NCBI GenBank assembly: GCA_019090385.1
Contig: JAHRWB010000101.1
Location: 1 to 39,274, forward strand
From: Pseudomonadales bacterium
GTDB lineage: Bacteria > Pseudomonadota > Gammaproteobacteria > Pseudomonadales > Azotimanducaceae
Length of the DNA: 39,274 bases
Direction of reading: 5' to 3'
This document shows positions 18,887 through 24,174 of the stretch, piece by piece (positions within the stretch are counted from its first letter, which is position 1; the number at the start of each line of letters is the position of its first letter). Made by a program: the position numbers and the translations under genes. The notes under the pieces are model-generated. The model had not been told where the DNA came from, did no database searches, and was given only the letters and a program-made list of their open reading frames with translations.

Positions 18887-19126
18887 ATTTGTGTCTTTTC
18901 CTACTTCTGTTTCCAGCGGTGCTTTTGAGCTGGGAAAGTATTTAATTTAGTCTTGGGACCGGTACAGCCACCATGCTTACATTTAGCCGTGCTCGCAATT
19001 CAATAACAACAAACGTTTTGACCCACTAAATCGCAAATGATTTCCGGATTATCTCAAATACCTGGCGTACTGTGTAGATACGTTTGATGAAGGATTCCGG
19101 AAACCAGATGCAACATGCCATCAGCA
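18887..19126 (-). other. cdsA-rseP gap where dxr is expected
   Basis: In pseudomonad-like gene order this site holds dxr. The 240 bases here contain no reading frame or recognisable dxr fragment in a visual scan of the minus strand. An inverted repeat, TTTCCGGA at 19041-19048 and TCCGGAAA at 19096-19103, separates two halves of the gap. It could be a deletion scar or simply the rseP promoter region. Confidence 0.4.
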
Positions 19127-22116: not shown

Positions 22117-22281
22117 TTATTTACCTGGCAGCTGAGCGGCCACTTCTGCAGCAAAATCCATCTCTTCCAATTCAATGCCCTCACCGACCTCCAAGCGTGC
22201 AAATGCATTGCACTCAGACTGGCTTTCAGATAGTAATTTACCCACTTTCATATTCGGGTCCATCACAAAAGCCTGCTCAGT
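22117..22281 (-). pseudogene. tsf: In-frame C-terminal continuation of EF-Ts after the TAA stop
   Basis: Directly after the TAA at 22284-22282 the same frame stays open for 54 codons and ends at TAA 22119-22117. It encodes a normal EF-Ts C-terminus, including [28 protein letters not shown] and [10 protein letters not shown]. With the upstream part the total is 289 codons, close to the 283 aa of E. coli EF-Ts. An in-frame ATG at 22263-22261 with an AGG about eight bases upstream could allow re-initiation. Without suppression, readthrough or re-initiation this part is not made. Confidence 0.85.
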
Positions 22282-22986
22282 TTAACTAATCTCAGCCAAG
22301 TATTTACGTACTTTACCAGCAACCATTTTTTCAATGATTTCTGGCGGCTTGCCACTTTCTTCTGCCTGGGCTGTAAATATCTCACGTTCCTTGGCTATGG
22401 CATCTTCAGAAACCTGATCGCTGCTGACAACTTCCGGTTTACTTGCAGTGACGTGCATGGCTATTTTTCGGCCCAGCTCCTCGTCACCTCCGGTAAGTGC
22501 AACGAGACAACCCTGCCGCTTATCGCCATGGATATAGTGATAAACCTTACCCGCTGGACATTCTACTCTGCCGATGCGCCTTACCGTAATATTTTCACCA
22601 ATTTCCTGAACCAGCTTTTCCCGTTCGTCAGTCAGCGGCCCAGCCATAAGCGCGTCAACGTCTTCACCACCATGGTTAAATGCGCTATCTGCAATTCGAT
22701 CGACAAAAGCGATGAATTTTTCGTTCAACGCAGCAAAATCCGTCTCTATATTTACCTCGACCAAAACACCCGTCTTTCCATCATCACTAATTTTCACACC
22801 AAGCAACCCATTGGCAGCGGTTCTTCCTGCTTTTTTTGCAGCTTTTAGAGCACTGGATTTACGCAAAGTACTAATTGCCAGTTCCATGTCTCCATCTGCT
22901 TCTGTCAACGCGCGCTTGCAATCCATCATGCCAAGCCCGGTTCTTTCTCGCAGCTCTTTCACTTGTGCGGCTGTAACTTTGGCCAT
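22282..22986 (-). CDS. tsf: Elongation factor Ts, interrupted by an in-frame TAA at codon 235
   Basis: EF-Ts is the guanine nucleotide exchange factor for EF-Tu. The open part encodes 234 residues: the N-terminal UBA-like domain (VKELRERTGLGMMDCKRAL), the ETDFAALNEKF signature near residue 80, and the core up to GKVRKYLAEIS. The codon after Ser is TAA, where relatives normally have a Leu in a motif like EISL.EQPFV; TTA to TAA is one base. The rest of the protein follows in frame (22281-22117). The gene is normally essential, so this is either a sequence error, a real nonsense change, or recoding. It sits between rpsB and pyrH. Confidence 0.93.
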   Translation of the reverse strand: MAKVTAAQVKELRERTGLGMMDCKRALTEADGDMELAISTLRKSSALKAAKKAGRTAANGLLGVKISDDGKTGVLVEVNIETDFAALNEKFIAFVDRIADSAFNHGGEDVDALMAGPLTDEREKLVQEIGENITVRRIGRVECPAGKVYHYIHGDKRQGCLVALTGGDEELGRKIAMHVTASKPEVVSSDQVSEDAIAKEREIFTAQAEESGKPPEIIEKMVAGKVRKYLAEIS

Positions 22987-23914: not shown

Positions 23915-24174
23915 ATATTTCTCCGGGTTGAGCCTCCACGCACCCCATTCCCAGACCTTGCGGCACCCATGGAAATGTGTCGATGTGTGTGAGTAGTTTT
24001 AAGTAAAATTAGCATAGCTGCAGGCAATATCGATCGAATCAGACATCAACTATAGTTATACAAAGCGAGCTTAGCATAACTGACCAAATAACATTTTCGA
24101 TTTTCATTGCCTGTCAGCGCCGCGCTTTATACCATAAACGGGTAATTGCATAAACTAATCTTTGGAATATTTTT
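23915..24174. promoter_or_regulatory. Divergent rpsB/map control region
   Basis: These 260 bases separate two long divergent gene runs and must hold their promoters. On the plus strand TTGCCT (24107-24112) and TACCAT (24130-24135), 17 bases apart, form a weak candidate map promoter about 40 bases before its ATG. For rpsB I see AT-rich TATGCTAAT-like elements around 24009-24017 but no clean pair. The leader next to rpsB is listed separately. Confidence 0.35.
23921..23968 (-). promoter_or_regulatory. Candidate S2 autoregulatory leader of rpsB mRNA
   Basis: On the coding strand the 48 bases before the start can form a closing stem. GGGTGCC (23968-23962) pairs with GGC and ACCC in GGCTCAACCC (23934-23925), leaving a three-base bulge. 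A G-rich segment, GGTCTGGGAATGGGGTGCG, lies inside. The GGAG ribosome-binding site follows directly. Gammaproteobacterial rpsB leaders are known to be bound by S2 for feedback control. The assignment here rests on position and pairing only. Confidence 0.4.

Follow-up and report, generated by a model that had tools for sequence, protein, structure and literature searches.

An in-frame TAA within an otherwise intact tsf gene is probably an isolated one-base error in a draft assembly

Introduction

Is a TAA codon inside the tsf gene of a bacterium a real stop, and is full-length EF-Ts made from such a gene? EF-Ts is generally needed in bacteria, and tsf is essential in E. coli. The question was raised by an original prediction, made from the sequence of the window (the whole stretch of DNA analysed, 39,274 bases, corresponding to the whole of contig C78). 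A literature search gave no report that we recognised as describing a bacterial tsf with a naturally occurring in-frame stop. The host genome (3.57 Mb in 229 contigs) is rated 99.35% complete. The only other genome of the genus that was compared, G001, is referred to here as the genus mate; its tsf locus, L003 (isolate OFTM202), and G001 were taken as one genome, as the contigs agree in length and both have the same residues at the stop region.

An in-frame TAA at codon 235 of tsf

The tsf gene is located on the minus strand (22986-22117), flanked by genes that we take to be rpsB and pyrH. Its ATG is the first of 234 sense codons (22986-22285), which by alignment encode the N-terminal and dimerization domains of EF-Ts and most of its core. 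Codon 235 (22284-22282) is TAA, in frame and at a mid-contig position. It is followed by a tail (22281-22117) of 54 in-frame sense codons and an ordinary TAA stop at 22119-22117. The tail, which includes EVGEGIE and a stretch of ten residues as originally stated, is a normal EF-Ts end, conserved and not decayed. The internal stop and the complete end of the protein in the same frame, as originally described, were borne out by the minus-strand reading and its translation. The internal ATG at 22263-22261 (codon 242), proposed as a site of re-initiation, was also found; an AGG lies upstream at a spacing of eight bases, and a GTG codon just before it.

The match to the EF-Ts profile PF00889 spans the internal stop (2.7e-63, 214.1 bits, profile positions 1-204, curated cut-off 27 bits) and includes one TAA. 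The gene thus belongs to the EF-Ts family by its profile match, while its reading frame is incomplete owing to the TAA at codon 235. When the stop is read through, the host gene aligns over its full length with E. coli EF-Ts (1efu_B, PF00889), from which it differs by the in-frame TAA at the residue aligned with position 228. The search for a second tsf, proposed in the original prediction, gave a single PF00889 match in the whole genome. Contig C206 of the host genome, which is equal in length to the contig that forms the window, had no similarity to the window in the 20 kb compared and is thus no second copy of it.

Leucine at the stop column in relatives

An alignment of 82 rows was used to compare the residue at codon 235. 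One row (L041) ends before the stop column; the 81 rows reaching it have 79 Leu, one Met and one TAA, the last being the host gene. As L002 and L003 are one genome, they were counted once, after which 78 of the 79 other genome records have Leu and the remaining one has Met. The claim that relatives have Leu at this position holds with that single exception. Comparison with close relatives had also been called for. The genus mate, which has 65-79% identity to the host genome in aligned DNA pieces, has no stop in tsf, and its codon at this column is a Leu codon one base away from TAA.

An EF-Ts match was obtained by profile search in 359 of 369 gammaproteobacterial genomes, host included. Of the 358 others, 229 were read row by row (150 best rows and 79 low-scoring genomes with 83 rows), leaving 129 outside this reading, and no internal stop was seen in these 229. 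Partial or split matches in eight of the 79 low-scoring genomes (G025, G097, G122, G237, G249, G334, G344 and G357), a few of them at contig ends, were stop-free. In view of the 229 stop-free genomes of the class, the internal stop would seem to be more than a chance occurrence.

Constraint on the tail

The age of a real stop should be reflected in the sequence behind it. The mean identity of the tail to 77 outgroups is 0.556 for the host and 0.547 for the genus mate; the corresponding values for the part upstream of the stop are 0.601 and 0.582. Conservation reaches at least 90% in 21 columns of the tail, and the host and the genus mate each match 20 of them. Identity between the two EF-Ts sequences is 78.6% before the stop and 63.0% after it. 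The lower value does not single out the host lineage, as neither gene is further from the outgroups. Synonymous sites are saturated, and dN/dS is uninformative. The tail is thus as constrained as that of the genus mate; an old truncation with a decaying tail is rejected, and any real stop in tsf would need to be young. A lack of decay behind the stop is also what is expected of a spurious stop made in assembly.

Cost of a real truncation

In the alignment with E. coli EF-Ts (chain 1efu_B), codon 235 falls on residue 228. In the available text of PMC9529903, E. coli EF-Ts is divided into an N-terminal domain (1-54), core (55-179), dimerization domain (180-228) and C-terminal domain (264-282). 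On this map, a product of 234 residues would lose the part of the core that returns after the dimerization domain, together with the C-terminal domain. Val-234 of subdomain C is described as touching domain III of EF-Tu (PMC3747624). A product ending at codon 234 should be defective. EF-Ts of M. tuberculosis has a naturally shorter end, without the E. coli C-terminal domain, and according to the available text retains a last strand of subdomain C of the core, at residues 259-267 (PMC9529903). The host gene, if truly stopped at codon 235, would in our reading lose the equivalent of that strand. EF-Ts is reported in all Mollicutes (PMC4014445).

An EF-Tu that works independently of EF-Ts was considered and rejected. 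The part of EF-Tu that was recovered (residues 31-394) looks ordinary and can be aligned from one end to the other with EF-Tu chains of solved structure; hence it gives no pointer to EF-Ts-independent translation. In the draft assembly tuf is broken at contig ends and tRNA genes are missing. Pieces of the EF-Tu gene lie at C195:1-1101, C10:3582-4199 and C179:2-181 of the host genome, in two cases at the start of a contig; the genus mate yields only short EF-Tu end pieces. The EF-Tu repeats were probably collapsed in assembly and the neighbouring tRNA genes lost with them.

Internal stops elsewhere in the genome

If the assembly were generally poor, internal stops would be expected in other genes too. 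None was found in 84 domain matches of the host genome (44 ABC_tran, 16 AMP-binding and 24 TonB-barrel), a few of which are partial. Twenty-eight other window genes of at least 145 amino acids, whose names are presumptive, align near full length with syntenic genes of the genus mate and have no internal stop. A split-gene test was carried out with 427 kb of the host genome (window included) against 460 kb of the genus mate, with antisense shadow ORFs counted. Among 70 matched reference ORFs (24,463 amino acids), tsf was the only real gene broken; the other apparent splits were antisense shadow ORFs by position or, in the case of rpsB, a conserved leader. When these 427 kb were scanned by composition, tsf was again flagged, and no other clear internal stop was seen in the 388 kb outside the window. 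Sensitivity was low, at 13% of interior codons for windows of 40 codons and 32% for windows of 30. The scan's other candidates, L126, L133, L136 and L123, were judged by eye to be neighbouring genes or noise.

The number of internal stops in this sample of the genome is thus not raised, and a generally low quality of the assembly is unsupported. The wrong or mutant base in tsf appears to be isolated. Such isolation would be expected about equally from a single error left in the consensus and from a single real mutation.

An Rfam t44 RNA (RF00127, 65 bits) lies at 23927-24012 on the minus strand, directly upstream of rpsB. Its sequence is conserved in the genus mate, and we read it as a conserved rpsB leader.

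Readthrough, re-initiation and recent mutation as alternatives

Reassignment of TAA was rejected. TAA ends 10 of the 28 window genes, tsf's own end included, the 28 other window genes are stop-free, and the RF-1 domain occurs in a short protein (147 codons) and in two others as large as release factors, with open frames of 378 and 347 codons. The original view that a genome-wide code change is unlikely is therefore upheld. A real TAA could still be read through, by an ochre-suppressing tRNA or by leaky termination, to give full-length EF-Ts, and the conserved tail agrees with this. So does a stable predicted RNA fold (22191-22280, minus strand; -29.9 kcal/mol, z -2.62), in which pairing begins at the second base past the stop; a nearby window has z -3.28, and of 131 control windows taken from 13 other genes, one was as extreme. 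Other parts of tsf reach -2.5, however, and the matching stretch of the genus mate has no such fold (z +0.98); the fold is probably due to chance. None of the 28 tRNA genes found has the anticodon UUA, in a set so incomplete (no tRNA-Tyr, -Asn or -Ile called) that a suppressor might have been missed. Against readthrough also stand the two release-factor-size proteins with the RF-1 domain, the lack of any other clear internal stop in the genome sample, and the use of TAA at the end of 10 window genes, which should make a strong suppressor costly. Readthrough is improbable. Less probable again is a two-piece EF-Ts, in which residues 1-234 would be joined on EF-Tu by a C-terminal piece of 48 residues started from the ATG at codon 242 or the GTG preceding it. 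The stop does fall at a domain boundary, and the ATG, 18 bases after it, has a weak AGG-type ribosome site with a duplex energy of -5.2 kcal/mol, stronger than 14 of the 21 window gene starts tested. In the genus mate, however, the same ATG is an ordinary Met codon with an energy of 0.0. Internal ATG or GTG codons do as well in 70 of 412 cases in 27 other window genes, and such a start follows within the next 11 codons for 226 of 3428 sampled codons; the restart site is neither shared with the relative nor clearly better than chance. The second piece would moreover have to complete the core in trans, and the 229 other class genomes read offer no EF-Ts with an internal stop. The fold and the internal ribosome site are weak hints and give no evidence of design.

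A further alternative is that the TAA is a real and very recent nonsense allele, a strain variant or part of a sick or dying sub-lineage, unfixed and served by no dedicated mechanism. This is unlikely, though less so than readthrough or a split protein. The undamaged tail is as expected of a young mutation, and the sampled genome has no other clear internal stop. On the other side, EF-Ts is found once in this genome and is generally needed, the truncated product would be without part of its core, and an allele of this kind would not be expected to prevail in a consensus. In order of decreasing probability, the explanations are consensus error, young nonsense allele, readthrough and split protein. 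Among the options originally listed (error, readthrough or suppression, and split protein), an error, or else a very recent mutation, is favoured; little supports readthrough or a split, and that little is not shared by the genus mate.

A probable error in the consensus, at a conserved leucine

The TAA is best explained as a one-base consensus error at a conserved Leu codon in a draft assembly, the gene being intact in the organism (probability about 0.75). We infer that the base at codon 235 is wrong; the assembly seems to be of the short-read, metagenome kind. This explanation draws on the single tsf match in a genome rated nearly complete, the undamaged tail with 20 of 21 conserved columns matched, the Leu in 78 of 79 other records together with a genus mate codon only one base off, and the expected defect of the truncated product. 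It draws also on the fragmented state of the assembly, with 229 contigs, a broken tuf and missing tRNA genes. Against it, the assembly has no general excess of errors, and the stop is mid-contig. In the living organism, tsf would be intact, the TAA being an isolated error of one base in the consensus; an ordinary EF-Ts of 289 residues would be made in full length and would recycle EF-Tu.

Many pseudogenes with internal stops arise in assembly, chiefly from low coverage or low-quality reads, according to the available text of Cooley and Wright 2024 (PMC11017572). The spurious pseudogenes described there are likewise conserved draft-genome genes, intact except for an internal stop, and more plausibly explained by a technical cause than by loss. 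In that study, as far as the available text goes, stops were counted across whole assemblies and nearly identical genomes were compared; the present case differs in consisting of one stop in a partial sample, with the genus mate as the nearest comparison. As a warning, when a draft genome has a lone stop with an unbroken tail behind it, an error in the consensus should be the first reading.

It is improbable that the in-frame TAA is real and that the only EF-Ts of this organism is made despite it, whether by readthrough aided by a structure or in two pieces through re-initiation, with its supply tied to the efficiency of termination. If true, a translation factor needed by most bacteria, and present here in a single copy, would have a natural stop mid-way, with a possible built-in feedback between termination and elongation.

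Isoprenoid genes in the genus

In gammaproteobacteria, dxr usually sits between rseP and cdsA. It is absent from the interval 18887-19126 of the window, whose flanking genes we take to be rseP and cdsA. The Dxr model matched neither of the two genomes of the genus (G000, the host, and G001) and 9 of 14 controls. For ispE, both genomes gave weak partial matches only, below the cut-off. Judging from these searches, the MEP isoprenoid pathway may have been lost from the genus, with a putative mevalonate route perhaps used instead.
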